A DNA stretch of 64,000 nt from Cliona cf. orientalis (taxonomy: Eukaryota > Porifera > Demospongiae > Clionaida > Clionaidae): contig OZ005707.1 in the NCBI GenBank assembly GCA_963930775.1, positions 4,774,001 to 4,838,000 on the forward strand, in the 5' to 3' direction. The notes under the pieces were generated by a model that worked only from the letters and a program-made list of their open reading frames with translations, ran no database searches and was not told the DNA's origin. The first letter of the stretch is position 1, and each line of letters begins with the position of its first letter. Both the position numbers and the translations under genes were made by a program. Below are positions 15,437-57,270 of this stretch, one piece after another.

Positions 15437-18400
15437 ATGCCCAAAATTTCCAGAAAAGACCAGCTTCATCAAGGACAGGAACATGGTCCATGTTCTTTAT
15501 GTAAACAGGAAAAATTCTCGTACACTCACATCAGGGACCTAGGGAGAGAGCACAAAGACAGGTTATTACAATTTTGTACAGGATCTGATGTAGTATATAT
15601 TATGCAAACCCTGCGTGGACGACATTAAGAGAAACTTGGGCAAGTGCAATTATGTTCCAAGATGGGTAAAGGTCACTTCCACGAATACACCAAAATGTGC
15701 AGTACCAGCATGCAAGAATAAAAGTAGGATTGTGCAGTGTTTGTTAACCACAAAAGAAACAATCATCAAAACACTTAAATTACCACCCTCATCTAATGAA
15801 TCAGAGCAAATCTATTTGTGCATTGAACACTATAAAGTAATACATAGGTCATTACCAGAAAACAAAGAACAATACGATCATTCTAAGCATAGGTGTACTG
15901 CATGCAGAAAGAGCATACACGAATTCCGTCACTGCCCAAATCCTGATATTATTAATAATCACCTTAAAAAGCACACAGATTTTGAAGGACACTTAGATGA
16001 TAAAAGTATAATATGTCGTACGTGCTACAACTGTCATCATATGATTCTAAAGGGCATGGAAGAAGAAAGCACCGATGCTGAGCTAGTTCATTTACTCGAG
16101 GAAATCACGAATGAGATGGACACATCGACTATTACAGGATTAGATAGTATTGTTGAGTATTCACTTTTGTCATCCGTAAATAGCGTAGCTCAAAATCTGC
16201 TGAAGCAACAGCCAATGCTGTTACCACAGGTGTACAAAAACTACTGTACAACCTTTCATGATGCTGCTAGTAGTCGTACAATGTCACAAAGTTTGGTAGT
16301 AGCACCAGAGAGTGTGGTGAGCACAAGGTACCTACTAAGTTACCTGGTCACACGAGTAGGCAAGCACCTACAGTACACAGTGAAGCAGAGGTCAGCAGGC
16401 ACACTCTTATACAGGAGAGGTAGTGACCCACTATTGATGCTGACAAAAGTTCTCCATAGAGTGCACTCAGGGTTTTACCACCACCAGGCCCCAAAGGATG
16501 AAATAGAGACGAATCAAGCCACAACCACATGCACTACTGCCACTGACAAGAATAGCAAGATTTGGGAGGAAATGAACACAAAAATTCATGATCAGATAGC
16601 CAAAAATTTAATTAATCAACAAGGTGTGCCTTTTGATGTAAGTGAATTTGACATTGACAAGTGGGTGGAGCTAATGGACAAGGACATTATGAAGATGCTA
16701 GCTGTATTAATTAAGCCAAAAAGAGAAAAAAGAATCCACTGTGACAATGTCTATGAAGACATGCTCAAATCACACACAAAAAAGCTGAGATGCTTCAATC
16801 TTGCTTGCATCATAATGTTCTGTGCTAATAGTGAGTGTAACTTTCCCCTGCACATTCTACTGGCTGATGCAATTGAATGCTTTGGAGGATCTACTGAGTT
16901 GATCCGAATATTTAATCGCTTAGGTGTAGTTTCATCTAAGGACACACATGCAAGGTATGTGGAACATGTAGTAACTCAGTATGAGGAGGGGAATCATCTA
17001 AAAGATCTGACAAAAGGGAAATTCACAGTAGCTTCACTAGACAATCTCGATTTCATTCAGAGTCACGCTGCTGTGTATTGTGGAGACCAGCACCGTAGTA
17101 CACACGTAACAACTATACAAGTGGTGCAACCAAAACCATCATCACTATCAGCTACAGATCGTGACCTTTCATCTAGCCGAAATGATACACCTCCCTGTGA
17201 CCATCAACTCCCATCCTCACAAACTAGTGTACCACAGAGCTCCCCTTCTGATCATGACACTCGGCCAATGGAAATACAACCATCTAAGCACCAACTCTTG
17301 CTCTCGTCCACTCAGCTAGTTGAAATACGGCCATCCAATCAGCCTATACTCTCACATTCCTATCACCAACTCTCACTTTCAACCACCACGCACAAGGAAG
17401 GGCATCATCAGCTTTCACTCTCAGAACCCAAACCTCCTGACAGCTCACTCAATCTCTCACAGCCTCACTTTCCTGTCAGCCAGTTCTCACTCTCACTGAC
17501 CTCACCTATGGAGACAAGTAGCTATACCAATGGAGTGTTAACTGCAGACTTGTCTTTGCCAGGCATTGAATCTAGGAATACTTGCCTTCCACTAGAACAA
17601 GGACAAACAGGCTATAATTCATCTCACTTTCAAACTCCAGGAGACATAGGTCCACCTGCAGGCACTTCTTCGTCACTATTTTTAACCCCAGGAGACGTAG
17701 GTCGACCTGCTGGTATTCCTTCACAATTAGGACTCAAACGCCTCAATACAGATACTACCGACACAGTTCCAAGAAAACTCAAACATCGGGCAAGGACAGC
17801 AAAGGAGAAGGGAATTCCCCCACCCATAAATGATCTACCTTTACTAAAGGAAATAGAGCATTCCCCAATCGCATCCCCAACAACTGTCACTCCTTCAAAC
17901 CTGACTCTATCAAATTTTGAATCAAATGAACAGGACTACCATGCTGTATCCTCAGCAAAGAGCAAGTATTTTGAATACATTGCATTAAAAGCAGCAGCAG
18001 CATCCTCATCCTTACATATGTGTGACTTGCAAACATACCTTCAACGCCAATCAAAGGAGGAGAAGGTAGAGAAGTCAGCTTACACTTATCTCTCGGTCAT
18101 TAATAAGAATGCAGACTGCAAAGAAACTATATTGGAAGCACTATGTACACTACACAAGGAGCTGGATGTCTCCAATACAATGCAGTACTTGGTAGTGGCA
18201 GGAGACTACAAAACATACAACCACATTCAAGAAGTCAAACGAACATACCCAGAGCAACTCCAATGGGTAATACCTTTTCCAGGTGACTTTCATACACTAC
18301 AAAACTACCAAGAGGCATTAATGAAAATTTATTGGGATGTTGGTCTAAAAGACATAGCAAGCAAGTGTGGATATCGAGGAGAAACTCTCACTCATCTGGG

Positions 18401-19661
18401 GAAATGCTCTAATTTTAGTATCACCACCAATTTTTTCTTTCAAGTGTGGGAATCTCTCTACTCACACATGTACATTACCTTCACTGAGGCCAACAGAGGA
18501 GATTGTCCAACATCAGAGGAAGCATTCTTAGCTTACCTAGAAATAAAGAAGACAGAGGATGACAACTGGAAGTTTTGGACAAGCTTTGTACTGGAAGATT
18601 GCCTAGCTTTCATAAATCTCTATTTAGCAGTACGTGGTGAGGAGTGGGATCTACGCATTGCTAGTCTCAAACAAATGGCAGCTGTATTTACAGCATGCGA
18701 CCGACAACACTATTCTAAACTGATCCCACAACACCTGGCTGACTGTGCAAAAATGCCAGATACCATTATTAGAAATTTTTCAAAGGGAGGGTTTGCTGTT
18801 AGCATTACTGGACGAAACTGGCACAGTGTATCATTTGATGAGGGACATGAAATGCTAATTAATAAGGACCTAAAAACTGCAATTGTTCGTCCAAATGCTG
18901 AATACATGTCTCGCTTATCGCTGTACTTTATACACAGAACGAAGGCACTGAAAAATTTACGCCAGATAGTAGACGATCAAAAGTCACATGAATACATGAA
19001 TACAGAGGAAGAAAGGGAGTCTAAATCTCTTGTTGATAATAGCACTACTGCTAAAAAACGAAATGAAAATGTAAATAAAATGAGAGAGGTAATCAAATCA
19101 TCACTCCTATTGCAAAAAGACACTCCAGACAACAAAACATTACGGAATAGCTTTACGGGAGAAACTGCTACCCCAGAGCAAAGGGAGGATCTTCTAGATT
19201 TCCGCAACATAGGTCAACATGAGTTCTTAAAGTTTGTCATGACTTGCATATTGCATCTATCTAGTGCTAAGAACACAAAAAGAAAGAAACACAAGCTACA
19301 TACATTTGCCAAACAGAAGGTGACAAAACAACAGCTAACAAATGTAGAGAGACAAAAGAAAATTGTCTCTCTCTGTCTACGAAAGCGATTATTAGCACAG
19401 CATGGATTGAACCAGCTTCCAACCCAGGACCAGTATTTAGAGCTACCCCGAGCAATAGCTGATGCAAACGGAATGCCCCACAAATCAGAAAAAAGAAATG
19501 CTCGAGAATTTCTTCATGAAAGATATGAAATATTATCACCTCATTTCCCTACCCACTGGTTTCCTGAAGCTGTGATTCTAGAGGGAATGTTCATGATCCA
19601 AAGCATACCCTTCCCGGGGTGCACCATGAAGCAATACTCCGCATTTCTTTTGGATCAGTAC
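15437..19661 (+). pseudogene. Zinc-finger / DUF6589-like N-terminal part of a multicopy PIN-CXC gene (interrupted)
   Basis: The main open frame starts at 15615. A short frame at 15437-15614 with CSLC is probably the true beginning, now one base out of register. Domains by residue of the 15615 frame: cysteine/histidine pairs resembling zinc knuckles (about 20-140); a Ser/Pro/Gln-rich stretch with repeated HQLSLS (about 500-680); a basic segment RKLKHRARTAKEK (about 720); and a conserved core with VVAGDYKTYN, PFPGDFHTLQNY (about 855-900) and TGRNWHSVSFDEGHEM (about 1060-1080). Proteins with this core (like DUF6589) are, from memory, numerous in cnidarian, mollusc and sponge genomes and probably mobile. 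The frame runs into foreign DNA at 19662, so the last 26 residues before its stop (19739) are not native. Function unknown; no transposase catalytic triad recognised in this half. Confidence 0.7.
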
Positions 19662-20287
19662 GTACGTATAGGTTACACACCGAGGTGTAGGTGGCTATGG
19701 GATTTATCATACCGAGGGCCCGCAGGGCACGAGGTATGATAAATCACCATAGCTACCGTAACCGAGGTGTATAACCGACTTCTACCATGGTAAACTATGC
19801 TCAATAGTATTTAATACTGTAGCTAGAGTACCTACGCTGCCGTTCGCGTCGCCATTCAGGGCCTTCTGTATCGATGAAGAGCACTAGAGCCGCTCGAACG
19901 CAGCCATGATCGAGCGACCGCGATAGTCGTCGACAATTAAAGCGGTTTCCTTCCTTCAAGGCTCCCAGAATCTGACCTGCGATACAGTGAGCATGGTCTT
20001 CGTCATCTACTGCAGCGATATCTCGCTGATCAAGCATAAAAACGACGGTTCTTCTTGCAGCATCAAAGCAGCCACGCAGCAGTTAGAAAAATTGCTGACC
20101 TTGCATCCAATTACTCCACCCACTTAATTACCTTTCAAGCGCGCGCGCCCCACACGCAGGTTGATAAATAACTTGTAGGTTGATAAATAACTTGTTAGGT
20201 TGATAAATCTCTTGTAGGTTTGATAAGTGATTTATCAACCTCTATTTGAGCAATCTGATTGGTCAGAATGTTACAACCATGGTAGAA
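19662..20287. mobile_element. 626-bp insertion splitting the PIN-CXC gene
   Basis: The flanking AGTAC occurs at 19657-19661 and again at 20288-20292. Removing the insertion and one AGTAC joins the two coding parts in frame (…DQY then YIHKNV…). The left part folds as an imperfect hairpin of about 44-bp arms (GGTTACACACCGAGG... and ...GAGGTGTATAACC) around 19670-19775. The right part holds four tandem copies of a TTGATAAAT-type motif (20160-20240). A minus-strand frame at 20037-19801 lies inside and is of unknown meaning. The ends are not clear inverted repeats, so the superfamily is unassigned, and 5 bp is weak evidence on its own. Confidence 0.65.
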
Positions 20288-21893
20288 AGTACTATATACA
20301 CAAGAACGTTGCAGAGATACACATCGTGTTTGATCATGCTAACAGACATCAGCATCACCCTAAACAGATAGAAAGAGCACGCCAAAATGCAACATGCATT
20401 CACAATCACACCCTATTTCAAGATGAGCTTAAAGCCCCATCCAAATGGAGAGATCATCTTGGTTGTTCAGTATGCAAAAGAAGAATAGTTAACTATGTCG
20501 GTGATTGCCTTTTACGACTAGCACCTAGCCTACTTTCAGGAACTCAGAAAGTTGTTGTATCTGGGTTTACTGAGGGAGAGGATGAAGATAAGGCCTTCTA
20601 TTCAACCTGCACCAAAGTGAAGATGTGTGACCCCAACCTTCAATGTAACGCTGAAGAGGCAGATACTCGTCTTTGGCTACATGCCATCAAATCTGAGGGA
20701 CGCAAAAAGCTAGTGTTCTCACCAGACACAGACACACTATTCATTGGCTTAGGGATGGTAAATGTAATATCAATGGATGTAGTCATTCAGGTAAACAAGG
20801 GAGCGTCTGATAAAAAGTTTGTTCACCTGAACGCTGTAGTGCAAGCTCTCAGCAATGATGTGGATCTCAACCCAATACCAACAGAGGATAGGCCTAAAGT
20901 TTTACAATCTCTATTTGTCCTTAGTGGATGTGATTTCACATCATCCTTCGTTGGTTTTGGTAAGGTAGCATTCTTCAAAGCTTTTTATGCTTATTCAAAT
21001 CTTGTAAGTGGTGAATCTGGTGCTCTTTCCCACTTACTTAATGAGGAAAGCTACTTGGCATTTTTGCGTATGATTGGAGTCATGTATTTCCAAAGGCACA
21101 GATCTACGTTTTCAAGCTACCATTCCCCCATGGCTCATTTTCACTCCCACAAGTCTGACAAAACCTCCATCAAACAACAGCATCTTAACTGGATCGATTC
21201 TTTACGACAAGGCATGTGGGATCAAGTAACATTTGAAGATCAACTGATTCCCTCTAATGAAGCACTCTACAGGCACTATCGTAGGTCAAGTTGGGTCATC
21301 GATTATTGGCGCAAAGCCTCCAACAACAACATGCAATTATTGCCTGTCACTAGCTTTGGGTGGAAGCTGGATAGAGACGAAGCACTTCAAATCGAATGGG
21401 ATTCGGATGAAAACATCCAGATTATTAACGAGCGTGTCACCTTTTTACTGAGGGGCTGTAAATGCACCAAATCAAAATGCTCTACTCGAGTATGCTCCTG
21501 CAGAAAAGCTGGAAGGCCATGCGGTCCAGGCTGTAGCTGTACTGGCTGCACCAACAAACCACGTCAAGGTACTGTATAATTAATACTATTCGCATGCTCA
21601 CAAACCACTCACAAAATGTATAGACACCGTCCTCACATACATCAACATGCATTGGTCCAACTCCCCCTTCCCACCACACACATAAAATATATTTGCCTAT
21701 CACAATTTATTATTGGATACTTATCTTGACAACAGATCAATCCATCTCAATTAATCAATCCAGTGCTGAGACCATAGATGGTGACAACTCTGATGAACAG
21801 TCAACTGGAGAAATGGATGAAGAAAGAATAGAGACTGAAGTAATCACCTTTGACAGTGATCTACTTGAACTAGTGAACAACCTGTTCACATAG
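20288..21893 (+). pseudogene. PIN/XPG-like nuclease domain and CXC-domain C-terminal part of the same gene
   Basis: Native sequence resumes at about YYIHKNVAEIHIVFDHANR. It then carries acidic signatures in the order of XPG/FEN1-type PIN folds: VFD near 20330, EEADTRLW near 20655, SPDTDTLFIGLG near 20719 and SGCDFTSSFVGFGK near 20925. The last resembles the GCDY...GIG turn of FEN1. The C-terminus has a Tesmin/TSO1-like CXC cluster (CKCTKSKCSTRVCSC...CSCTGC, 21450-21550), a DNA-binding type. I place a donor after 21568 (CGTCAAG/GTACTG) and a final exon at 21736-21893 after AACAG, giving an acidic tail ending LLELVNNLFT; without that splice the protein stops at 21579. The upstream in-frame ATG at 20227 lies in the insertion. 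Nuclease activity and DNA binding are inferred from motifs only. Confidence 0.7.
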
Positions 21894-22502: not shown

Positions 22503-25500
22503 ATGGCTGCTGGTGGTGAATCTGATGTGATCGTGATCTCTTCTGACTCAGAGGACTCTGACAGTACTGAAATATCTACGGACTGTGATAACATTTTAAC
22601 TTTCACCCCTACCAAGAGGTACTCAACAGCATGCCATCGCGATCGTTCACTGATAACTAATTTATCTTTTTTTACAGACCACCGAGTGAAGTGGATTCGG
22701 ACGAGGATGATCATGATGGAGAGCTGGGCGACTCGCACCAAACACGGTAAGCCAAAATACGTGCCCCCCTCCCCACAAAAACAAACAAACAAACAAATAC
22801 GAGAGTGGCATACAGCTAGTTGTGCACGCATTATGCCACGAAAGCTATTCAGTTAATAATGATCCATGATACTTGTTGAGGAACAATAATTGTATCTTGA
22901 GATGGTAGGTTGGCCTGATGAAGTCTTGTGGTGTGTTAGGCTATTTAAGTGATGTTCTGGTGGTAAAATGGTACGTTTTAACGATGTCTTGGGGGTCATA
23001 ATCACTGCCTCTATTTCAATTACCGTATTTGTTCTAAAAATTCGGCCCTTCTAATTATTCAGCACCCTTTACTGAATGATCGAAAATAGTCTATAATTTT
23101 CGGCAAAGGTCGTCACACATATATGCTATAAACGGGAATAGAATGTACACACAGACAGAATGTTGAATATTAACCTCTAAAAATTCGGCGAAGCTAAAGC
23201 AATCTTATTATTTTCATGCCGAATTTTTAGAAGAAATACGGTATGTCTTCTGGGGAAATTTACCTATTACTTTCCTTCAGGGGAACCGGAAAAGTGTTCC
23301 TCAACAGTGCTTATTAACTCTACTGGCCAAATATTGTTACCACAAAATTGACCGCATTGTACTGTGGTTTATTTTCTCATTTCTATTTCATGTAGGAGAG
23401 AAGATGATCCTGGACCCAGTTGTCGCAAAAAGTGAGTAGCCAGAGATGATACCATGAACTGCTCCTTTCTACTACTTAATACTTTGTACAGTAGTGTGTT
23501 AATAATTATGTGGCTTCTCTGACAACCACTATGTAGCTGTGGTTGACCTTGCATGAGAGTAGTTTGCACAGCTGTGCTAGGGTAAATTTTAGTGGCAGGT
23601 GTTGAGCTCTTGTGCATCATAAGCTAGCTTAATGCTGTTATTCAGCCTATTCTTAATCTGAATACTTTGCAGGATTAAATTTGAGTCTCCAGAGGTAGAT
23701 TATTACCATGGTGACAAAGAGTTGCCAGTGTATTCACGAGTTCAATGTGGATATCCTGTCGGAGATCTAGTGAACATATTGTTGAAGTCTGACCTTGATC
23801 TGAATAGAGTTTGCACTGTTCAACCTCTGAGTGTAACAGAAAACTCGTGCTTTGTTGTAGACATTGACTCTGTCGATTTTCAAGACCTAAAGGCTGATGA
23901 TCTTGGAGCTTGGAGTACTACAGGGACCAAGAAATGCTTCTTTCGTTTTGCACAGTCGGGCACTCTCCGAGTTACAGACAAGAAACCCTCGAACAGCAAG
24001 TTCAACTATTTCACCCTGACCCGTCGATATTACATTCATAAATCGTATGACAAATTCCATCGCCAGTTGGTGGATATCAAAGGTATGCTAAAATGATTCA
24101 ACACCTTATAATTATTTGGCACCCTTCATTGAATTAGTCTGTACTTGATAATACTTCAAACAGCCTCAGAGGTCATAAATATCCTGGGAAAGCATGCCCC
24201 CCAGATTCCATAGTTTGGGCACACTACCAAACACCAGAATTTCCCCCTCAATGAAAAATGTATATTAATCTCTACCAAGAAATGAAGAGGAATGGCCTTG
24301 ACTGCTATATACTTTGGATTCTTGGGATTACTCTGTGCATTAGATACTTTATCAATAATTATTACTTTTGAGAAAAATGAGTTCAAAGGTCAACCATAGT
24401 TTTAGCATGATGTAATGCTTAAAATATTATGCAACCCATGCATTGTGAGAAGTCAATTTTGACATATTATGTGTTATTAATAGTCCACTTCTATATTATA
24501 TACTCTCGGCGCCCACATTTGCTCTATGGGGGCACACGTAGTCAAACTGACGCACTAGCCCAAGTATTATAACTTTTATCACCACCAGGGTTTATTTGCT
24601 TGAGGGGGCAAACACATTGCAGCAAACATCGAGGGGGAACCCTATAATATATTAAGTATAGGCAGGAATTAATACAGGGGGGGCACCCCGGGATCCCCCC
24701 CCCCCCTCCCGACTGGCATGTCCTTTTGAAAATTGCTGAGTATTTTACTAATGCATGTTGTAGAGTGTGATAAAAATTATTAATATGCAACTTTTTACTT
24801 GTGTATATGGTCTCAGAAGCCACCAGAAAGTCTCAGAGGTCGTAAATTTCCTTTCCTGGGGGAGCATGCCCCCATGCAGGCCCCCTATTTTGGGTACACT
24901 ACTGTACACTAGAATTTCCCCCCTCTACGAATAACTCGTGTATTCTATAATATTATGTCTATAATATCCCTGCCTATAATATTGTATATAAGTATTACCT
25001 TTCATCCTGTACAGATATGCAAGGATGCCACAACCGCTATGCTATAGTGCAATATTGGTTTGATGGGCCACAGATCGAGATCAAAATTAAACCACATGGC
25101 AATTCAAAATCTTCCCATCCATACTTCAGGACAGCAGCGTCTGCTAAAGCCCAACACAAGGCAATAGCATCTAGTCATACGCCCAAATCGGCTGTACAAG
25201 TTGCTGTAAGACAGCAAGGAGGGGAACTTGATGCCCGAGGTTTGAACAAATTACCAAGGAACATTGATCAGATGAAGAACTATCGTCGGTCGGAAGCAAA
25301 AAAGGAGAGTGATGTACTCTACTCGGTCATGTTGCAGTGCAAGTTATCGGAGGGTAAATCAGATGCGTTTGTGCGTGATGTCAAAGCTGCACCTGAACCA
25401 CAGTGTATATTATTCACTGATTGGCAGTTGGCTGACCTGGTTCGTTTTTCTACCAAGCCTTCAGAGTTTTGTGTGTTCACCGCTGACACTACTTACAATT

Positions 25501-27551
25501 TGGGTGATTTTTATGTGACCCCTACTACGTACCAGCACCTCATGCTTGAGGATACTGCTTCACGGAAGCATCCTTTCTTCTTGGGTCCCATCCTAATTCA
25601 TCAACGTAAAAATTTCTCGGCATTTAACTACCTTGCAAGTACACTGATAGGATTCAACAAAAAGCTTCAAGATGTGCAATTCTTTGGAACCGATGGTGAT
25701 CCAGCCCTAATTGAAGCGCTGTCTCACAATTTTCATTCTGCTAAACAGTTGCGATGCTTCATTCATCTCAAGAAAAACATAACAGAAAAACTCCGGGATC
25801 GAGGAATTCCTAGCTACGAAACACAAGAATTTCTTGCTGATGTGTTTGGAAAGAGAAGTGGGAACACATATGAAGAAGGGCTGGTGGATTCGACAGATGG
25901 TGATGACTTTGATGCTCGATTAGACAATTGTGAGGCAATATGGTTATCAAGAGAAGCACTGTATGCTCGTCAAGGTCAAAACACTTTTTTTGACTATTTC
26001 AAATCACACTACTCGAGTGTGATCCGAAACAACATGCTGAAGGATTTGAGGACATCTGCTGGACTTGGATCACCTCCCAAAATCTTCACTACTAATGGTT
26101 GTGAAAGCCTGAATGCAGTCATCAAACGCAAAGTGAATTACAAGGCAACGGAGTGGCCAGACTTTAACAATCAGTTAAAGGAGATAGTTGAAGGTCAGAG
26201 AGATGAAGCAATTCGTTCCTTGTCTGGTCGTGGGCAATTTCAGCTCTGTGAACAGTATCGGTATTTGCAGGTTCACCCCCAAGAATGGGTGAAGATGACA
26301 TCTGATCAGAGGCGTAATGCAGTGAAGAAATTCGATGATGCTCCTTTGCGCAAGTCAAAAAGTGCTGGCCAAGGAATTTTGCGAGCTGCCATGTCCAGTG
26401 ATAGTGCTAGTGACACTGTCACAGTATCCAGTGATGTTGACACTAAAGGTGGCATGAGCATAGAATCTGAGGATTGTGGTATCACTACTCTACCACAAGC
26501 AACTCTGGATTCAATCTGGTCAAAAGCACTCGAGTATGTGTTATCGTCATCTGATGTTGTAGCTGCTCCTGGCGGTGATCCAAAAGCCAAGATGGTTTCT
26601 TCTCGATCCAATACTTCTCCCCATTATGTACAAGTCCTTAGTTCTGGACAGTATGTGTGTGACAATAGTTGCTTGCAGTGGAAATCCTCGCAAATATGTG
26701 CACACACTGTAGCTGTGTCGGAGAAGAATGGTGATTTGCAGTCCTTTTTAGATTGGTATGTTGCTACGAAGCAGAAACCCAACTATACGTCACTTGCTAT
26801 ACATGGTCTTCCTGCTGGTCGTGGACGAAAGGGAGGAGTTCCCAAAAGGCAACGGAGTAAAGCTCAACCTCGTGCAGAAATTAGTATTCTTCGTCCAGCC
26901 ACTTGTTCCAGTGAGTCAGACAAAGTTGGTGCCTCTCCTACTGTACAGTCCTCTCAAGATCGCTCATCACATCCAGATATAGCCTCATACAGCAACACTC
27001 GGTCTGAATCGCTTCCTACTGGCATTGGTTCTTACTTACCACAGTCACCTCTCTCAATATCGCAGCCAAGTGCAGTACCCTATGGCAGTGTTCAATCTGC
27101 ATCATGTCTCACTAGTGTTGGTTCTTCAGCTCCAGTGGTAACACAAAACCAGACTATCAATATCCATCCTTCTTTTCCAGGACCATCCAGCTCCAGATCC
27201 GCACAAACATACTCTGAAAATCCATTCTTTTTGCGGTTTATACAAGGAAACATAAGAATGTGCCAGGGTTGCCGTATGTCATTGCGTACAGTGGATGGTA
27301 GTGTTCCCAAACCACCGTTTGATCTTGCAATAGCACGGTTTGAGCGCAGAACCTTCCGTGATAAGAATGGAGAATTGCATACACCATTGCGTGAACAAGC
27401 AGTCCATTATCATTTGAAGCCTTGCTGTATTCAAGTTGTAGCCCCTGATTTTGATTCATCAAATGTGTCAATTCCTGCAGATGTGCAGCCACTGCTTACT
27501 CCGGTCCACAAAGAATATTTACGTTTAATTTTTTTCATGCAAGTGGTATAG
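22503..27551 (+). CDS. MULE transposase, five exons, 1,055 residues
   Basis: Exons read from splice sites and frame: 22503-22618, 22678-22746, 23396-23431, 23673-24082, 25015-27551; all introns are GT-AG and the spliced frame is 1,056 codons including the stop. The N-terminus (MAAGGESDVIVISSDSEDSD) is acidic with a SUMO-interaction-like VIVIS. Exon 5 holds the MULE RNase-H core: D368 in FTADTTYNLGDF, D437 in FFGTDGDPALIEAL followed by LRCFIHLKKNI, and E574 in TNGCESLNAVIKRK. A SWIM-like cysteine/histidine motif follows (YVCDNSC...QICAHTVAVS, about residue 750), then a Ser/Pro-rich linker and a C-terminal CQGCRMSLR cysteine pair. It would bind the terminal repeats, excise and reinsert the element in the nucleus. 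The catalytic assignments rest on family pattern, not alignment. No stop or frameshift is seen, so it may be active. Confidence 0.85.
23021..23243. mobile_element. MITE in intron 2 of the MULE transposase
   Basis: TACCGTATTTGTTCTAAAAA at 23021 matches the reverse complement of the right end (TACCGTATTTCTTCTAAAAA at 23243). Inverted ends are about 26 bp and total length about 223 bp. The outer TA on both sides suggests a Tc1/mariner-type TA target. It is a nested insertion within the MULE. Confidence 0.75.
24165..24262 (-). repeat. Dispersed repeat with GCATGCCCCCC core, copy in intron 4
   Basis: Shares CTCAGAGGTC, TAAAT, GGGAAAGCATGCCCCCCAG and ACCAGAATTTCCCCCT with 24800-24925 and, in opposite orientation, with 640-765. 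Non-coding; family unknown. Confidence 0.55.
24800..24925 (-). repeat. Second intron-4 copy of the GCATGCCCCC repeat
   Basis: Runs from GGTCTCAGAAGCCACCAGAA to AGAATTTCCCCCC. It matches 24165-24262 in the same direction and 640-765 inverted. The preceding 24660-24720 holds a C-rich run. Confidence 0.55.
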
Positions 27552-27710
27552 TTAGGTCTTTATTGTTGCTTATTTAGGGCCACAATAATATTGTCATAAT
27601 TATGTTGTAACAGTATAATAGTTATTACTGTTACTTCTATGTATCTCCACATTATGAATGATTTGTGACACTGATTCCAATTTTCTAGCTAATGGTCGTC
27701 ATATCACCAT

Positions 27711-27799
27711 GCTCGAGTCCATAGTCGAGTCCACAGTCCAGTCCACGGTCCAGTCCATGGTCCAGTCCACGGTCCACAGTCCAGCTTTTACACTTACCC
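27711..27799 (-). repeat. Right MULE terminal inverted repeat
   Basis: Reverse complement of the left end, with one 12-bp unit fewer and a few substitutions (GACTCGAC for GACTGGAC in the innermost units). Confidence 0.85.
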
Positions 27800-27888
27800 C
27801 TATATCTATACGTATACGTTAAACTTAACTTATGCAATATTGATGACGTCATCAGTTGTTGGCGTAACGACTGGGTACAAGGTCAAGG

Positions 27889-28682
27889 CATAGATATTAT
27901 AGACTACGTAAACGGGATTGGAAACTGCTCACGTGAGCAATAGAACGTGTACACGCACTCCGTATTATGGTTTGCATTCTTGGATAGACCCGTTGCTATG
28001 ACAATTTGAGCAAAAATGGCCGAAAATGGCGACCGCAGTGCACTTATCGACTAATAACAGCGAAATGACAGTAGTTTTGAACTTCAACGAAGCTTATCCC
28101 AGTGAAGGAGTCCCTACTCTAAACGTGGCCAGCAAGTTTGAGTTTCCGAAGTCTCTCTGGTCTACGCTACAGTCCCACAAAGTCCAAGAAGCAAAAATGG
28201 CCGGTTTTTGGGCCTTTTCACGGCCTGCTCACTCACAGAAGACAGCGCATCAAGTGTCAAAACGGTCACAAGTAAGACAGCGCATCCCAAGATGGTGGAA
28301 AGGGCAAAGCCACTGCACCGATACACTGAAATAAACAGTTTTCAACAGTTCTTGATCAGCCATTTTTGCTTCTTGGACTTTGTGGGACTGTAGCGTAGAC
28401 CAGAGAGACTTCGGAAACTCGAACTTGCTGGCCACGTTTAGAGTAGGGACTCCTTCACTGGGATAAGCTTCGTTGAAGTTCAAGACTACTGTCATTTCGC
28501 TGCTATTAGTCGATAAGTGCACTGCGGTCGCCATTTTCGGCCATTTTTTGCTCAAATTGTCATAGCAACGGGTCTATCCAAGAATGCAAACCATAACACG
28601 GAGTGCGCATACGCGTATACGTACGTTCTATTGCTCACGTGAGCAGTTTCCAATCCCGTTTACGTAGTCTATAATATCTATG
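27889..28682. mobile_element. P-type fold-back element
   Basis: The arm at 27889-28201 is repeated in reverse complement at 28359-28682 with about 97% identity by eye, around a 157-bp loop. The outer ends are CATAGATATTATAG and CTATAATATCTATG, and GTCAAGG flanks both sides (27882-27888 and 28683-28689), a 7-bp target duplication. The end motif CATAGATATTA, the nearby GGATTGGAAAC and the 7-bp duplication match the P element at 36088-41052. Each arm carries the same open stretch starting MATAVHLSTNNSEMTVVL, about 60 codons, as if the first exon of a full element had been inverted and duplicated. It has no transposase, so is non-autonomous. Confidence 0.8.
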
Positions 28683-28771
28683 GTCAAGGTCTACCTTATA
28701 TATTAGCACAGAGCGCACTTTCATGTTTATCGACCCTCTCGCTTTCCGAGACGCAGACGTTTCCATCGAAA

Positions 28772-30049
28772 ATGTACGCTCAAGCTTTTCGCACATTTGT
28801 TCGTCGTATTCCAGTACTGTCTTTGATTGAGCGGTACCCGAAAACATCGCTGGGTTTGGGACTGATGTTGTGTTCGCCAATTGCTGACCGATACCTACAG
28901 CGAAGGGCAAAGCGTGTATTGAGTCAGCCGATTCTAGACAAGCTGGAAAGGGGATCGGGATCAGACATTGCTCTACCTGATTTGCCCATACGTCTAGAAC
29001 GTGAAAAGGAATTTAGTAACTTGAAACTCGTCATCGACAACTCCAAGAAGGGCTACGATGTATCCAAGATCGGGGGCAAAACTTTCAAAGTGGTACTTGG
29101 ACCGAGCGGAACTGGCAAGACGTACTTAACGAGGAAGCTGTGCAAAGAGTACCCCTTCGGCGTTCTTTATCACGAAGTCTTCGATCCGTGTGTGGCTGCA
29201 CAAGAACTGGCACACAGCTCGGGTATGTTACTGGAACCTATAGGGGTATTTGATTTAGCTTTGAGTTTTGTTCCTCGGGGGCGGTATAGACACTATCACG
29301 TGTTGCCCAAGAATCCTACCTCAGCATTGGCATACGTACTCGCCAAAGTTGGAGAGCAAGCGGCCCGCTTCAAAAACAAACATGGATACCCCCCCACTTT
29401 TGTCATTGACGGGGCAGATCTGATCGCAAAGCATGATCCTAAAGCCTTTATAGCGTTAGTTGATCGAGCCAAGTTTCTGGCAAATGTCGGGATATTACAG
29501 ATCGTCTTCGTGAGTAGCGAGGGGATTGTCATACCACTGCTACTGAGAACGTCGTCATCCACTAGGGAAGCACCAGTGGTGGAAGTGTTGGATATATCTG
29601 AAGAAGATGCGGTTGACTTTTTGAAGAAGGAAATGCCTGCAGATTTAGCAAAATTTGTTTTCAGCATGACTGGTGGCAGGCTCGTTCACATGATTCAGGC
29701 CTTCGAGTTCTACCAAATGAAATGTAGGCCCTACTCGTTGGAATCATCTCGTACGAAGAATTTAATAGAAAGTTTCCTTGTAATAAAGTACGGCGAAAAT
29801 GCCCGCCTTCAAGCCTTGAAACAAGGCGACTCTCGGTTACAAGACGAGGTTATCAGGCTAGTGTTTCTTCGAAGAAATGTTACTCCTAACGATATTGTAA
29901 AAGTGTTGCACACGGAAAAAAAGGCAGAAGTCTTGAAGGCTGTTGACGACCTCTTGGCAAGTAGCTTGTTTAGGTACAATGCAGCTGGATTAGTAACTTT
30001 TCACAGCAAAATTGTTGAAGATTTCTTAAAGAAGGATTTATCCATGTAA
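28772..30049 (+). CDS. Intronless P-loop (AAA+/STAND-like) ATPase, 425 residues
   Basis: Single open frame from MYAQAFRTFVRR to stop. Walker A is GPSGTGKT (about residue 110) and Walker B FVIDGAD (about 213); a sensor-like IVFVSSEG follows at about 245. The C-terminal part has LDISEEDAVDFLKKEM and MTGGRLVHMIQAFEFYQ, the lid-type helices seen in AAA+/STAND ATPases. The N-terminus has a short basic stretch and a weakly hydrophobic LGLGLMLCSPIADR. From memory, similar single-exon proteins with an F/YVSSEG motif occur patchily in fungi, oomycetes and some animals, sometimes near Crinkler-type proteins; this is a resemblance, not a search result. Base use is more GC-rich than its surroundings. It starts 83 bp after the fold-back's target duplication, so the element forms its upstream region. 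Substrate unknown. Confidence 0.8.
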   Translation: MYAQAFRTFVRRIPVLSLIERYPKTSLGLGLMLCSPIADRYLQRRAKRVLSQPILDKLERGSGSDIALPDLPIRLEREKEFSNLKLVIDNSKKGYDVSKIGGKTFKVVLGPSGTGKTYLTRKLCKEYPFGVLYHEVFDPCVAAQELAHSSGMLLEPIGVFDLALSFVPRGRYRHYHVLPKNPTSALAYVLAKVGEQAARFKNKHGYPPTFVIDGADLIAKHDPKAFIALVDRAKFLANVGILQIVFVSSEGIVIPLLLRTSSSTREAPVVEVLDISEEDAVDFLKKEMPADLAKFVFSMTGGRLVHMIQAFEFYQMKCRPYSLESSRTKNLIESFLVIKYGENARLQALKQGDSRLQDEVIRLVFLRRNVTPNDIVKVLHTEKKAEVLKAVDDLLASSLFRYNAAGLVTFHSKIVEDFLKKDLSM

Positions 30050-35169: not shown

Positions 35170-36689
35170 TACTTGGTATTGTTACTATGGTATACCAATG
35201 CTAAATCGTACAGGCACTGTACACTGATTCAATTATTGTGGGCTAGGGTAGCTGTTTTGAACATGACTTGACTGTGGATGCTCTACTCTACTGAAGAATG
35301 GTTTTAGTGATATTAGATGTTGTTACCATAGTAGTATTGCAGTGTATGTATGTATCTGCATGGTAAACAATCAAAACAATCAATGTATGTATCTGCATGC
35401 TAAACAATCAATGTTCTCTATCCACTAATTTCACTTCTCTCTTGCCTGTTATAACAACACTAGCCTTTACCGGGCTTAATGGTAATAAGTCCCAATTATC
35501 AATCTGATTCAATATAAAGTAAGCCTAAGTGCATATGAATTTGTGTGAATCTATACAATGCAGGTACGTACACTTATGTGCCGCAGTTTTTTTTTTCTGC
35601 TTAGTGTGCACGGTAGCTTGAAAAAAGCAAATTTAAATAAATAATCTAATTCATGGGGGGTTTGGGAGCACTTGGGGGGACAATTTTTACATGGGCACGC
35701 AGAGTGGGTCGAAACTAGAGATTTGACCGGACAGATTTTTGATTCACGCCTTACAATTAAAGTTACGGCCCTTTGAAGTTACCCCATATGTTTGTATAGG
35801 AAGCCATGCATTTGCAATGTTTTCTACGTGAGGGGCGGGGCCACGCGCGCACATCAACGTGACGACCATTACCCACTTTGGTCAAAACTGATGTACAGGC
35901 TGTCTGCTTGCATTGTATGGCTCTACTATGCATCCGGCTCAACTATGTGTTTTTTTTTTCCTGCTTAGTGTTCTGGTCTCCTTGAAATTAAACACTAAGT
36001 TACACACTAAGATAAAAGAATTTCCGTATGAGTAATGTAATGTAATGTAATGTAATATAAATAAATAATTCTTGGGGCCTGTGGAACCATAGATATTAGA
36101 GCGCGGGGAAATGGATTGGAAACGGTCACATGACCCGCATAGTCCGCTGTAGTGACGTATTACTTCCCGTTCGCGCATGCTCGACTCGGTCGGTACACGC
36201 CCACTCCAAGCACTATGCTACTGTTTCTTTGTTTTGGTTGCGCTAGCTCCTTCGGTTTACCGCATCCGACCAAAGCAACGTGACGAGGAAGCAGGACCCC
36301 CGCGTTTTTCTAGTTTGGCCTAAGTCGGAGCTGTGGACTGAAGGTGAGCCATATTTGGCTGCTTGTGGAGTTATTGTGGAATTTCTGTGATAGTTTGCAA
36401 TGCAAGAGAGCCTTTGCCTGCTTGTTCATATTGATATGTGTTGACTTGAACCGTTTCTATTTAGTGCTCATGCAGTTTTATACATGATTGAGATTATGTT
36501 ATGGTGTAGCCCGTATAACCTTTTGTGGAGTTTTATAAACATTAGTAATGAATTTGAGATTTCATGCAGGCCTTATTGGTACTACTGTGCTATAACTGAA
36601 TTGATTTGTGCAATAAATTGTTGTATTTTGTGCAATTAAAGGTGTATAATACAGTATTTTATTCTCGTCTATATTATATAGAGCTAACA

Positions 36690-39600
36690 ATGGGGTATAG
36701 AAAGTTTCGTCTGCACCAACGAAAGAATGCTGAACGTAAGCGGTTGGTGTCTCGCCAACTTAAGAGTGTGCAAGGAAGACCCAAGAGACGACAAAGGGGG
36801 GTGCGCCCTCAGACGCAGGTAATTCCTTATGTGTACTATGGTACCGGAAATTAAGTAATGTTATTGCTTTAGGTACCAGCTCATTCTCAAGAGCTGACTC
36901 TACAGGGAATTCATAATGGTCTTTGTCTTCCATCTAGTAAATGGTCTAATCAGACAACTAACAGCTCAAATGAGCTAAAGCTTTGTAAGCTAGGGGAACA
37001 TGAGCGTCAGATGGCCATTGATTTGTCCTTGGTAGTCAAAGAAGATTTTACTTGGTCCCTTACTGTTCATGGTGTGGACGTAGATGGTAAACGGTGTCCT
37101 TCCATTAGCAAATTTTCCAATCCTTTGTTGCCTGTTAATGTGAATCAGTTTATTGAGTGTCTAGACAAGCTAGCTATATGTCCCGGTCATCCTGATTCAC
37201 ATTTTGTTGAGTTCGCCATGGCAAAAAGGAAATTTACTTCTGCTAATGGCAAGGTGACTGCTGTTCTTGATTCAACTTCTGATGTTACCTTAAATGGCGA
37301 TACTTTCTCGAATACCGTGAGAGTTGCCAATTGTCAGATGCTTGTGCCATCAGGAAAGTGCTGTGCTTGTGTTTCTTACCGCCCTTCCCTACGTACTATG
37401 TACAACAGGTGGCTTAAAAATAAGAAACTTACCCCCACAAGACGCACTAACTCTAGCAGCCGAGTGAATATTAGATGGCTTAACACCCCTGAAAAACGCA
37501 AGCGCATACAATCCATTCAGCGTCGATTGGTGGCTGCAGAACGTCAAGTTGAGCAACTGAAGGAAAAGATACGAAATTCAGTTAAATCCCATGGAGTAAT
37601 TGTTGATAATCAATTGAGCGACGATCTGTCACAAATCGTAAGTGACCACACCCCTACAATAATTGCCGATTTTCCTGAAAATTCGTTCCAGAGGCTGTTT
37701 TGGGAGCAGCAAAAGGAAGCAATGATCAAAAACCCAAAACAAATGCGATGGCATCCCACAATGATTAAGTGGTGCCTGAGCATAAGGCTCAAATCATCAA
37801 GGGCATATGAAACGATGCGCGAGTTTCTTACATTGCCCTCGTCACGCACACTGCGTGACTATACCCACTATATCAAGGCCTCCACTGGATTTCAACCAGA
37901 AGTTACAGAGCAATTAATGAATGAAGCTAAGTTAGACACGCGTGAAGATTTTGAAAAGGCTATTGTATTGGTGTTCGATGAGGTTAAATTAAAAGATAGC
38001 CTTGTGTATGATAAGCATGGAGTACGTATAATTGGGTTTGTTGATGTAGGGAATGTAAACAATGACTTACTGTCGTTCGAGCAATCATGCCAAGACTCCA
38101 GTTCTGTTGAGCCTCAGGTTGCCAAACATATGCTGGTATTTATGGTGCGTGGTTTATTCATTCCCCTAAATTTCCCTTATGCACAATTTGCAACACGAAA
38201 TCTATCAGCTGATTTGATTTTTCCATTGGTATGGGAAACAGTACAGAAATTGGAAGCAGGTGGTTTCAAAGTTGTAGCCATTAACAGTGATGGAGCATCA
38301 TCCAATCGAAAATTTTACCACATGCATCTGTCTCCTACCGCAGTAACAACCGAGGATTCAACGGTTGTTTACAAAACCAAAAACCCGTATGCTGATGAGG
38401 ATCGTGATATATACTTCTTTTCAGATGTGCCACATTTGATTAAAACCATTCGAAATTGTTGGTCTAATTCCTTTGCACACAGCAACAGCCGTGCACTTTG
38501 GGTAAGTATTTTACAAGGTGTAACATGACAATATTATTTTAAATTATTTTTAATTTAGATCAATGGAAAGCATATTAGTTGGCTTCACCTCTCTGCCCTC
38601 TACAACAAATGTACTGCGACCTCAGGCTTGAGCCTTCTCCCAAAATTGAAGCAAGAGCATATAAAGTTAAATTCATATTCTCGAATGAGGGTGTACCTAG
38701 CAGTCCAGGTTTGTAGCTATATTATACAGTCATGTTTTGTATGCTTTGAAGTACTGTTCATTAAAATTAGGTTATCAGTGCGAGTGTATCACATGCCCTG
38801 GCATACTACAATGATCCTGCTACAAGTGAAACTCGGCGATTTTGCAGCATGTTCGATCGTTTTTTTGATTGTTTGAATGTCCGAGCCTATTCGGAAGGAA
38901 AAAAGAAGCGAAAACCAAACCTACTGCCATATAGAACAGCCAGTGATACACGTTTTAAGGTAACATCTATATACTGGTGAGTGCTATAGCTGCAGTTTAC
39001 TTTGTATATTTCAAAACATAATAGTGGCTTAAAGAAGACCTACTTGGGTATCTGACCGAGTGGAAGAGAAGTGTCATGGCCAGAAAAGAATTTAAAGCCG
39101 GAGAGAGGGCACAGATGATGCTGAGTAAGGAAACAATAAGTGGAATAATCATGACAGGTGGGCATTATTTAATTTTCAATAGTCTCATTCCTAGACCCCA
39201 CCCTCAAGATCGTTTTCATAAACTTATGTACTGGAGCACATGTGATCATGTGATGGTGCACAAAAAAATGCCTCAATGTCCCCATACCCTTTGCGTACCC
39301 TATTGAGGGTGTGGTCTGTGAATGAGACTAAATTTATATTACATTTGTTATCGTTTCAAATTTAATGCACACACACACACACTGTGCATGCATACACAAT
39401 ACATGTGGTGTGTAGTTAACTCATTCGTTGAGTTGGGGAAGAAGCTGCTCAATACACCAGGTGTAAAGGCTGTATTTAGCGAGAGATTCAACCAAGACCC
39501 TTTAGAGAGTTTTTTTGGGAAGCAACGCCAAAGAGGGGGTTACCGTGACAACCCTACTGTCAAAGATTTCATTTACGGAACCCAATCACTACGTATACAA

Positions 39601-39723
39601 GGCTCACTAGCACGGGATCCAAAGAGAGGAAACTGCCGCAAACGCCATCAAGATAAGCCAAGTGATTTCATTGATAATACACCACTTCCAAAGAGAAAAA
39701 GGTACTCAGGTTCAAGAAAATAG
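36690..39723 (+). CDS. P-element-like transposase, six exons, 845 residues
   Basis: Exons by eye: 36690-36818, 36873-38501, 38559-38708, 38771-38959, 39025-39157, 39416-39723; a probable non-coding first exon ends at the GTGAGC donor near 36342. The spliced frame is 846 codons. P-transposase hallmarks in order: WHPTMIKWCLSIRLKSSRAY; D412 in VFDEVKLKDSLVYDKHG; D516 in INSDGASSNRKF; FFSDVPHLIKTIRNCW; MRVYLAVQ-VISASVSHAL; and E774 in FNQDPLESFFGKQRQRGG. No THAP zinc finger is visible; the N-terminus is instead strongly basic (about residues 10-40), and a cysteine group CQM...GKCCAC lies at about residues 145-165. A coiled-coil-like RRLVAAERQVEQLKEKI follows. It should act in the nucleus on the CATAGATATTA ends. 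Catalytic residues are inferred from family pattern. Confidence 0.88.
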
Positions 39724-39841: not shown

Positions 39842-40882
39842 TTATTTGAGTTCATCTTTAGTACTCTTTCGCTTTAATCCTTTTCGTAGTGCCGTTTTAC
39901 TTGTCTCTTTTGACACCCTTTTGTATTGCTCCATCCAGCATCCTGCAATAGAACCTCCTCTTATGGTTACCCACAAGGAAAGAATTTCTCTCAGTAGCTC
40001 TGTTGAACCGTCGCAATCAACGGACAATAAAGACCAATGGAAACGTATGTCTTCATTCTCCAACAATTCTTTTAGGAGAGTAGTTTTCTGGTCTTCTGTT
40101 GCTTGGCTGGATTGTAGCTGTAGAAGTTTCGTGAGGCTCGAGCGAATGTTCATTTCAACACACAAAAAGAAACTGAATGCACAGTCATTGACCTCGAAAG
40201 CACCACCACGATTAACCTCTTCAAACCACTTACGACAGTAATCATAGAAACTGTCTTCAAATGCACCCACTGCCATATTTAGCAGACACTCAACATATGA
40301 TTCATATTTGTGCTCCTTTCTCTTTCGGTATCTCCTAATCAACACGACAGGTACGTAACCACATGCATACATCAGGGTATTTTTTTCATCATCAGAAATA
40401 TCTGGCAAGGGTTCCTGAGAAAGCCATCTTTGGCTGTTTGAGCCTGAAGGAAAGTACTCTTTCAGCTTGGACTCGAATAATTCTTGCACGATAGTCTGAA
40501 TTAGCAGAGAGTTAGTATCTTCAATTCCCAGCTGATCTCTCAGGAATTCATCCCATAGCTCAGGTATGGTTGTACAGCGAAGTGCATGATACTTTGACCA
40601 AGCCTTTTCCCTTTGAGAAGAAAATGATGTTTCAGCTGCTGCTTCACTTAACGCAGTATCATACAACAGATTAAGTTTTTGTATGAAAGTCTCCAAGATA
40701 CTGGAGTTCGCTGGGTTTGACAGGCAGGCCAACAAACGCTTGCCGAATTCCTGGAGTTGGGCACACCTTTCGGAACGTAAATTGAAGTCTTTCTTGGAAA
40801 GAACCGATGTGAGCACACTCTTAAAGGCTTCTGCTTCAGATGAAATGGAAGCGGCCGGTCCTGCGTGAGAAACAGACGCCAT
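39842..40882 (-). CDS. Second ORF of the P-like element, 346 residues, function unknown
   Basis: Single-exon minus-strand frame, convergent with the transposase (stop codons about 120 bp apart), wholly inside the terminal repeats, starting about 170 bp from the right end. It begins MASVSHAGPAASISSEAEAF and is mostly alpha-helical in appearance. Recognisable stretches are YACGYVPVVLIRRYRKRKEH (about residue 180), CLLNMAVGAF, WFEEVNRGGAFEVND and FFLCVEMNIRSSL. The C-terminus is lysine-rich (ALRKGLKRKSTKDELK), a likely nuclear signal. I do not recognise a catalytic motif. It may be an accessory factor for transposition or host interaction, or a captured host gene; the intact frame suggests selection or recent capture. 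Confidence 0.75.
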   Translation of the reverse strand: MASVSHAGPAASISSEAEAFKSVLTSVLSKKDFNLRSERCAQLQEFGKRLLACLSNPANSSILETFIQKLNLLYDTALSEAAAETSFSSQREKAWSKYHALRCTTIPELWDEFLRDQLGIEDTNSLLIQTIVQELFESKLKEYFPSGSNSQRWLSQEPLPDISDDEKNTLMYACGYVPVVLIRRYRKRKEHKYESYVECLLNMAVGAFEDSFYDYCRKWFEEVNRGGAFEVNDCAFSFFLCVEMNIRSSLTKLLQLQSSQATEDQKTTLLKELLENEDIRFHWSLLSVDCDGSTELLREILSLWVTIRGGSIAGCWMEQYKRVSKETSKTALRKGLKRKSTKDELK

Positions 40883-41736
40883 TCATAACGCGATAGCTCT
40901 ATGGTGTATGGTAAACGCAGTATACTTGTACAACTATGCATGTGCGCATGCTGCAAAACAGGAAGTCACATGACCGAGACAAGCATCAAACACGACATTT
41001 CTATGAATATCATTACGTTTCCAATCCATTTCCCCGCGCTCTAATATCTATGGTGGAACGATAGTGTGCAATAATTTTTATATGCAGGTGAAGAATGGAA
41101 GAAATAAAGAAAATGAAATGTATCAAAACTTTAAATTTCACTTTCATACCTCAGAAAACGCCGTGTTTGTTGTGTCAGAGCCATGGGGAAAGTCCCTGTT
41201 TATACGTACGTGCATAGCTCCAGTACATTATCGATCGCATGCTGTGACGTTCCGCGTACGGTAACGCCCACCTAAATTGAAAAATGCAATGAACGAGCTC
41301 TGTGGTGGCACCTAGGAGAATGAGGTCAAGTTCGTTGGCATGTTCCGTTGCTCATAGCGGTGAAAGGAGGAGAGAACGAAGCCTATGGAAAGGCTTGGAA
41401 GCAACATTGGGCAAGAAGAACGGTACCAATGATCGTCAACTGAAGCGATCCGCTAGTTTGTAATGAGAAAAGCCAATGGAAGGTAAGCTAGTTTGATCAT
41501 AAATCGAGAATGCATGGTATGAATTCTTGTGATGTAGCTAACTAGACTAGTAATAACGTGGCTAAGTAGCTATGATAGTTCCTATGAGTGTGATAGGCCT
41601 CAAACCCAGGTAGAGGGAGGGCTTGGTGTAGCCTCGTACCCAGGCCCTTCAAAAGGAGGAGGAGAAAGGGCCTGGTACACATTGCATGTGCATGTGCCAA
41701 GGGACCTTAGAAAAAAATGTGGGTTAATCGGATACT

Positions 41737-53740: not shown

Positions 53741-56700
53741 ATGAAGTTACTTTTCTTCCTTCTCCTAAGCCTTGGGGAGATCCTCCCAATCTCATCTGAT
53801 CAAGGAGTGACCTTCTGTGTCAGGCCAAACTCAACCGCCACATGTAGCACCGAGGATCACTGTCAACACTGTGAATCTCTACAGTATTACTTTGATAATG
53901 TGGATACAACCATCAACCAGGAAAAGAATGTCGCTATGATCTTTATGGATGGTAGTCACACAGTTAACTTCAGTAGTACGGTTGTTTTTTCAGCACAAAC
54001 TGTAAATATAACTGTGAAAAGCCTAAGTACAACAGTGACACTAATGAGTGTCTGCTGGAAAGATATTTGCAAAGGTGGAGATCTAATATTCAATAGCACA
54101 TACTTCAGCATGAAGAGTTTCAACATGACTGTCCTAGTAAATGAAGACCGGAGATATGTTCAACAGATGGACTCCTATACAATAACGATTACTGCGATGA
54201 AGGTTACACTACAAGAATGCACATTTCGATCTCGTTTTCCTGATACCCCTCAGGTGTCAATCACTATTGGATATGCAACAGACGTACTGCTAAAAGATTG
54301 CGTTTTCTATGATCTTGATATTCTAAGCATTAATGAAGATACAATGTCAAATGAGCACACACTTGAAAGCAGCAATCTAAATGTAACGCTAGAATCCTGT
54401 GCATTCAATCGTTCTAGATCTGACACTGCAGTACTCACATTGATTTTGATCATGGATGCAATGTATGCAGTGCTAAAAGGCTGTACATTTGCATATGCCA
54501 ACACCAGAATTTTTTATGCAGACAACACAATGATGGAAGGCTGCACGCTTACAAGATCCCCACTAATCATTACAGACGCAGAGTATGCCATACTAGAGGA
54601 CTGCACATTTGAAGATACTTATCCTCATAAAATTCTCATTGCTGAATCTAGAACAGTCATTCTTAGCAAATTGAGAATTTTTGGACAGGAGGATAACTGG
54701 GAGCTTACTGATGATACAAATATCCTATTAAAAGATTGCCAAGTTCAGTCCACAACTGTCAGCATCGCTAGGTGCAACACTACTATAGCAGGGGAATCCG
54801 TGTTCACTACCACTGCCATACTGGGCCAATTCAGCTCCATTACAATATCGGGTAACACCACAATCAAGAATTACCACAATTTCAACGGAGCCATGTTGTT
54901 AGATTCGTCTAATTTAACTATAGCAGCTGGAGCAGAAATGACCTTCTTTAACAATTCTGCACTGAACAGTGGAGGCGCACTCTTGATTATGTTGTCTTAT
55001 TTCTACATGGAAGCAGGGGCAAGCGTAAAGTTCATCAATAATTCAGCTAATGACAAAGGAGGAGCAATCTATGTCAAGCCAGGTGTGGGTTCGTTTGTGT
55101 CTGAAATTTCTATCGATATCAATTCCAAGTGCTTGTTTCAGCTCAGTGGTGAAACTCGCGTATTATTTGCCAATAATTCAGCTATAAATGGAGCTGGAGA
55201 TGATGTATACGGAGCTACACTGGAAAACTGCCAGTTTCATCACACTGGTTCAGTAGTAATTGACAGATCTGGTCCACCAAGCCTTTCCTCAGTCTCCTCT
55301 GACCCACAGCGTGTCTGTCTATGTGACAACCACGGTGTACCACAATGCGATGCAGTTAACAACATTCGAAGAGTGCATCCTGGAGAGAGTTTTATAGTCT
55401 CGGCTGTTACAGTGGGTTGGGATTATCCAAATACTACCACAGGTGTAATCCACACTGGTATTCTTCGCACAGGTGGTTCTATAATCCCAACACTTGATTC
55501 CACATCTCAAAGAGGTCATGTGATCAGCAGTAGTAAGCAGTGCACTAGTATCACTTTCACTCTTTATTCAAAGCCTTCACCAGAAAATGTAACGATGTAT
55601 ATTACTACGTCATATATGGACACTCGTACTGCAGAAAATTTTGTACAAAAGGAGTGTAATTACCCTAGAAATATAAATAAAGCTTATTGCGAGTATAAAG
55701 ATCACCTCACACCTATCTTTTTCAATATTACACTTCTTGAATGTCCAGCAGGGTTTAAGCTATTACCCTATGACCAGAGCTGTGACTGCTACCTGCATAA
55801 CATATTGTTTGACAGCTGTAGCATTAAGAATGGAGCTGGATACTTCCTATGGACCAAAACAATATGGGTAAGCATAGAAAAGAATGGATTATTGCTCTAT
55901 AACACACACTGCCCGTTTGACTATTGCAACATAACTGGTAAAGATATTAACTTGCGGGACGACTCTGACTCCCAGTGTGCCTTCAACCGAGCTGGTAGAC
56001 TATGTGGTGGCTGCAAGGCCAACTACAGCCTGGCTATTGGATCTTCCCACTGCATTCACTGCCACAACAATAACAACCTGGCACTACTCATTTTCTTTGC
56101 AGCTGCAGGATTCCTGCTGGTGTTCTTCATCAGTGCCTTCAACCTCACTGTCACTCAGGGAATGATCAATGGACTCATCTTCTATGCCAACATTGTATGG
56201 ACCTATCAAAGCATCTTCTTTCCTCAAGAATTGATATCAAACCCTGTGCTCACTTTCCTGAAGACATTCATAGCCTGGATCAACCTTGACTTTGGAATTG
56301 AGACCTGCTTTGTGGATGGACTTAATGCTCTTTGGAAGGCAGGACTGCAGTTTGTCTTCCCTATCTACATATGGGTCATCACTGGACTGATCATTATGGC
56401 TGCAAAATACTCAACTAGACTCACAAATCTCCTTGGCAACAGAGGTGTTCCAGTCTTAGGAACCCTCTTCCTTCTCTCGTATATTAAGCTGCTGCAAACT
56501 TCCTTTTCCATAATGGAGTTTTCTATTCTTACTTGGGAAGACAACTCAACAGTTTTGGTGTGGTCAATAGATGGAAACATTAACTACACTGATCTTTATC
56601 ACATTCTTCTGTTAATAGCTGGACTAGCCTCACTGCTGTTCTTCTTATTGCCCTATACGATACTACTATTCCTAATACAGTGTTTTCGAAAGATTTCACA

Positions 56701-57270
56701 CTTCTGGCTGCTAAATTGGATCATGAAATTTCACCCTGTTTTTGATGCTTACTTTGCTCCTCTGAAACACAAGCACCACTATTGGTTTGGAGTACTATTA
56801 CTAGCCCGGGTACTACTATTGACTGTGGTTATATCAACATTCAACATTTCGCAAAGCATAAATATCTTGATTCTCTTTACGGTTGGAACTATATTACTTC
56901 TGTACATGGCTCTTGTGAGGCCCTACAATAACATTGCCATTTTAGTCCTCCAGACGGTTCTTTTCTTGCCAATCTCGTCTTCCTTAGTGGCTGGATTAGC
57001 TTTGCGTATCACACCGATGTGAGCAACACATCTAGGCCATGGATCAAGACAGCTACCATCATGGTATCAACCGGAGTTGCTTTTTTTCAATTTTGCGGCA
57101 TTGTGCTTTATCCAATACTTGCTCCTAGGTGTTCACATGTCACGAAAAGGTGCTGTCCAAAGGCAGAGGTTGAACTTGACGATGATAATAGTGATCTCAT
57201 TGCTGACCGTGACACTGGCTATCACGATCCTGTTCTTAATGAGTCACAACCTCTTTTACCAACGTACTAG
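53741..57270 (+). CDS. Copy 2: secreted-domain beta-helix / multi-membrane receptor-like protein (frameshifted near the end)
   Basis: Single-exon frame from 53741 to a premature stop at 57022, with the normal tail continuing in another frame to 57270. Layout by residue: signal peptide 1-20 (MKLLFFLLLSLGEILPIS); right-handed beta-helix coils about 60-500, N-glycosylation-rich, with LK(D/G)C(T/V)F and NNSA.NxGGA motifs; cysteine-rich juxtamembrane module about 640-775 (CPAGFKLLP, CDCYLHNILFDSC, NRAGRLCGGC, CIHC); then about seven to eight hydrophobic helices from about 785 (LALLIFFAAAGFLLVFF) to the end. Copies 1 and 3 read CTCCAGAGTTC where copy 2 has CTCCAGACGGTTC near 56955; the two extra bases cause the shift. 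The shared tail ends LNESQPLLPTY, with a dileucine-type sorting motif. Large families of this layout exist, to my knowledge, in sponges; ligand and signalling are unknown. A sequencing error at the two bases would make this an intact gene. Confidence 0.75.

Follow-up and report, generated by a model that had tools for sequence, protein, structure and literature searches.

Analysis of a 64,000-nucleotide (nt) stretch of the genome of the sponge Cliona cf. orientalis (hereafter the window; forward strand of contig OZ005707.1, positions 4,774,001 to 4,838,000) has revealed a transposon of the P superfamily with two convergent genes, an intact transposase gene on the plus strand and, on the minus strand, a second open reading frame (ORF2). 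P elements are textbook one-gene transposons. Our data support ORF2 as a genuine second transposon gene, making this a two-gene P-type system: both genes lie within one pair of inverted ends, relatives of ORF2 are found mostly beside P transposases and convergent with them, ORF2 is under purifying selection, and the transposases are truncated, without a C-terminal domain (CTD). An earlier note, made from the letters of the DNA, had pointed to an intact 346-codon frame with no recognisable domain, wholly inside inverted ends, and to a two-gene P system; all of this is borne out below. We consider it probable that the transposon is a cut-and-paste element whose transposase is split over the two genes, with ORF2 being a CTD-like subunit that acts in trans and both proteins being needed.

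The element and its transposase

Inverted repeats of 39 nt, 100% complementary to each other (36086-36124 and 41016-41054), enclose both genes. The element proper is 4,965 base pairs (bp) long, with terminal inverted repeats of 37 nt on the left (36088-36124, plus strand, starting CATAGATATTAGAG) and on the right (41016-41052, minus strand), flanked by the 7-bp target site duplication GTGGAAC at 36081-36087 and 41053-41059. In all four elements with both ends read (the window element and those at loci L032, L041 and L042), ORF2 falls within the repeats, and the two 7-bp flanks agree at 7 of 7 positions. The last 94 bp of the element on the ORF2 side (40959-41052) share 89-96% identity with ends at other places in the genome, including those of a sister family on four contigs that has ends closely similar to the window element's; unlike this end region, the ORF2 proteins of the sister copies are only 51-58% identical to that of the window. 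The 94-bp stretch is a conserved subterminal region and a candidate binding site.

The transposase gene encodes 845 residues, with no stop once five GT-AG introns, whose boundaries were picked by eye, are removed. Exon 1 (36690-36818, plus strand, as are all six) begins with the ATG and encodes a basic N-terminus; exon 2 (36873-38501) covers a helix-turn-helix (HTH)-like part and the N-terminal part of the RNase H domain, with D412, D516 and D561; exon 3 (38559-38708) and the first part of exon 4 (38771-38959) carry the GTP-binding insertion domain; exon 5 (39025-39157) leads on to exon 6 (39416-39723), comprising the C-terminal part of RNase H with the catalytic E774 and a basic tail, with no CTD. 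In Pfam, the TNP-like RNaseH_N, GTP-binding and RNaseH_C families (PF21787, PF21788, PF21789) scored above the cut-off and the P HTH domain slightly under it; phmmer matched the protein to the Drosophila P transposase (PDB 6p5a) with E 3e-21. The catalytic residues, assigned by motif as D412, D516, D561 (in D-x-x-H) and E774, conform to the P-superfamily signature D, D, [C/D](2)H, E (PMC8230255). The protein terminates 71 residues past E774, and the stop codons of the two genes are 118 nt apart, an arrangement from which, speculatively, overlapping transcripts may arise. Among 23 transposase loci, counted with no upper limit on tail length, the tail measures 68-78 residues in 21 and is shorter in two, with none longer. 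No THAP domain was found by Pfam in the window transposase, and a THAP match was present within 8 kilobases (kb) of the transposase at 2 of 111 loci genome-wide.

Because the core features of the superfamily are present (catalytic signature, terminal inverted repeats and target duplications), whereas the THAP domain, the 8-bp target duplication and the CTD in cis after RNase H of canonical P/THAP9-type elements are absent, we have classified the element as a two-gene P-superfamily variant without THAP rather than as a canonical P element. The ends of the Drosophila P element begin with CA, as do those of the window element. Drosophila P further shares the DDE RNase H core, the GTP-binding insertion, the D(2)H motif and, as far as the predicted model goes, a CTD fold resembled by ORF2; it differs in being a single gene with the CTD in cis, an N-terminal THAP domain and an 8-bp duplication (PMC7776569), as opposed to two convergent genes, a CTD proposed to act in trans, no THAP domain found and a 7-bp duplication. 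THAP9 and zebrafish Pdre2 have the same catalytic architecture as the window transposase (PMC10983969, PMC8230255) but are single THAP-bearing proteins with the CTD in cis and an 8-bp duplication, as given for Pdre2 (PMC10983969).

ORF2 as a multicopy transposon gene

ORF2 (39842-40882, minus strand) is a single exon of 346 open codons from ATG to stop. It is not a chance frame, since in 1000 first-order Markov copies of the 4,965-bp element the longest ORF reached 202 codons. Pfam found no domain in it (best E 0.11), and relatives were sought in viral contigs, species genomes and phages, with none found. Proteins with ORF2-like motifs are presumably common among the hypothetical proteins of coral and sponge annotation.

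Within the genome (216.8 Mb in 149 contigs) the picture is that of a family; the match counts of these searches are lower bounds. A protein search with the window ORF2 gave at least 105 matches, 35 of which span at least 280 of the 346 residues, 26 of these without internal stop; a second search, with a distant ORF2 member as query, gave at least 111, and the two merged into 91 loci. The P RNase H domain yielded 118 matches at 111 merged loci. An RNase H match lies within 8 kb of 66 of the 91 ORF2 loci (chance expectation about 0.8%), with convergent orientation in 64 of the 66. Conversely, an ORF2 relative stands within 8 kb of 53 of the 63 merged transposase loci scoring at least 45 bits and of 12 of the 48 weaker ones. 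Neither copies of the element lacking the ORF nor a single-copy host orthologue, the two alternatives held out in the earlier note, came to light: the closest copy (L032), 97% identical, keeps ORF2 intact, with the transposase frame broken. Because the relatives are multicopy and mostly adjoin P transposases, ORF2 is not a captured host gene, and the broader idea that the element transports it as cargo, be it a host gene or a silencing suppressor, is extremely improbable.

In the dN/dS comparison suggested in the same note, the window ORF2 differs from that of L032 by 12 synonymous changes over some 238 sites and 5 non-synonymous changes over some 800, a ratio of 0.12 (binomial P 4e-5); ORF2 is under purifying selection. 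Comparisons between families show synonymous sites close to saturated (0.70-0.80 per site) and 0.34-0.46 non-synonymous differences per site.

Some arrangements of these copies are recorded here in their own right. Two sister-element copies (L008, L009) lie head to tail with 5 bp between them (G000:C6:10561114-10570962); at G000:C1:6213221-6219650, 4.5 kb separates two facing ORF2 copies, each sharing 97% identity with the L030 one, and no P RNase H match is close by; and outside the element at L032 (6483-7682) is an unrelated 399-residue ORF that by eye resembles part of another transposon.

A proposed C-terminal domain subunit in trans

Given that the transposases are truncated and that the predicted fold of ORF2 matches the CTD of the Drosophila P transposase (6p5a), we surmise that ORF2 is a transposase subunit, i.e. 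a separate CTD. The CTD-like region of the model comprises residues 159-346 (39845-40408, minus strand), with conserved YAxGYV, NRGG, IRGFSIA and LRK motifs and a basic tail, while residues 1-158 (40409-40882, minus strand) form an all-helical N-terminal half with a W..FH.LR motif. The body of the protein is acidic (net -11, residues 1-292) and its end basic (+7, residues 293-346), with a long last helix in the predicted structure; in 2 of 20 family rows (L019 and L025, both odd or partial frames) the end is acidic instead. For its part, the P CTD has been described as acidic and made up of alpha helices throughout, connected to RNase H through a disordered linker, placed between RNase H and another subunit's GTP-binding domain, in contact with both transposon and target DNA, and ending in a basic helix followed by 17 unmodelled residues, many of them basic (PMC7776569).

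We postulate that the plus-strand gene would provide the catalytic subunit, with the HTH-like part, the DDE RNase H and the GTP-binding insertion, stopping about 70 residues past the catalytic Glu, and that ORF2 would provide the missing CTD, extended by the helical N-terminal half. This half, which the CTD match does not cover, may serve as the dock by which ORF2 binds the catalytic subunit; once docked, ORF2 would do the job of the CTD and make its DNA contacts in trans, such that transposition would need both proteins. As to the earlier note, an accessory protein in the sense of a second transposon gene has stood, and the structure prediction it called for yielded the likeness to the P CTD; its first guesses of a regulator, silencing suppressor or captured host gene have not gained support, a regulatory role being unlikely; truncated transposases and the predicted ORF2 fold point to a subunit.

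Several observations weigh against a split transposase: 1) the relation of ORF2 to the CTD comes from one structural comparison with a predicted model, and sequence-profile searches of the PDB with ORF2 did not find the CTD; 2) no transposase match was found near 25 of the 91 ORF2 loci and no ORF2 match near 10 of the 63 strong transposase loci, including L043 (C13), where no ORF2-like frame was seen and the transposase is apparently cut off; 3) young copies compared in five pairs (L014/L016 and four pairs from the sister family) show 3-4 non-synonymous and 0 synonymous changes per pair, pointing the other way from purifying selection; 4) ORF2 at L032 is intact despite a broken transposase. 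Concerning the second point, the linkage counts may be too low because the search missed partners at L029, an ORF2 locus adjoined by a transposase tail exon, and at L044 and L047, strong transposase loci with a divergent partner gene. Concerning the third, the changes are so few that these pairs neither support nor refute selection. All that the PDB profile searches returned, TASOR (E 0.095) and a repeat protein (E 0.008), was dismissed as chance. When compared with the PDB, the full-length ORF2 model gave weak helical matches (cullins, mitoribosome, importins), and 6p5a was not among the matches listed; Pfam PF12596 had no match in the genome, but the control gave none either.

The intact ORF2 of L032 would be expected of a protein independent of its own copy's transposase, such as a CTD-like regulator that binds the transposase or the ends and represses or tunes transposition from outside the active complex. 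A separate gene on the opposite strand would permit independent control, and Drosophila P itself makes a truncated 66-kDa repressor (PMC7776569). However, a CTD in cis is missing from the transposases of this clade, so a CTD-like partner more likely fills that gap than inhibits, and the partner has been retained across very diverged families; we therefore find a regulator unlikely. Less likely still is a general accessory factor (for DNA binding, nuclear import or help in replication) whose CTD likeness would be a shared helical arrangement only, an idea that would fit the lack of ORF2-CTD similarity in the profile searches. The accessory protein of PIF/Harbinger elements, which belong to another superfamily, is Myb-like. 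Such two-gene systems are known there, as transposase plus second ORF (PMC5543537), and in the Kol0 lineage of Kolobok, by description a cut-and-paste animal transposon with a transposase and a second protein, KolX (PMC9587614), likewise of a different superfamily and with a TTAA target. Among open-access titles and abstract openings, we found no two-gene P element; Repbase and most subscription papers, which lie outside that search, may catalogue such elements.

Age of the pairing and its implications

Many of the weaker RNase H matches at first appeared partnerless. At five loci of a deeper clade (L044, L046, L047, L048 and L049, three families by eye), a divergent homologous second gene occupies the same convergent place in all three families, being only partly left at L049; inverted ends were not found at the five loci. 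A profile of four of these partners aligned to a profile of 20 ORF2 proteins with a score of 34.3 over 182 columns (E 9e-4; hhalign probability 22%), versus a maximum of 20.4 in 100 column shuffles and 15.5 for the reversed profile; single sequences matched weakly (E 0.12 and 0.008). L045 (C12), a weak RNase H locus near a THAP match, is degraded, with no second gene seen. With near-duplicates and short rows removed beforehand, distances between ORF2 proteins and between transposase tails at 9 loci were correlated (Mantel r 0.64, reached in 40 of 9999 permutations). We lean slightly towards an obligate two-subunit P transposase, catalytic protein plus opposite-strand CTD protein, that is older than the split of the two clades, with the one-gene P/THAP9 form having arisen by fusion, or the two-gene form by a single early fission.

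Elsewhere in the window, a MULE/Mutator-type transposase ORF (25017-27551) precedes, on the same strand, an ORF encoding an AAA_22 ATPase domain (28772-30049); the region 25017-30049 is possibly another two-gene transposon. A 1,232-residue DUF6589 ORF and, after it on the same strand, a 318-residue ORF carrying a Tesmin/TSO1-like CXC domain (16041-21579) may represent one more mobile element. Chlamydia-PMP-like repeats occur in three long ORFs at 5340-9604 and 53741-57022, of which two (5340-6722 and 53741-57022) also have beta-helix matches.

If our reading is true, nature has split the P transposase at the disordered linker between RNase H and CTD, making the CTD a separable subunit whose role could be approached by adding or withholding it, and one may ask which state is the ancestral one, one gene or two. 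Multicopy ORFs unrecognised by Pfam would also gain a family and a role, and the superfamily would come to be seen more broadly, with P transposases that lack THAP and make 7-bp target duplications.
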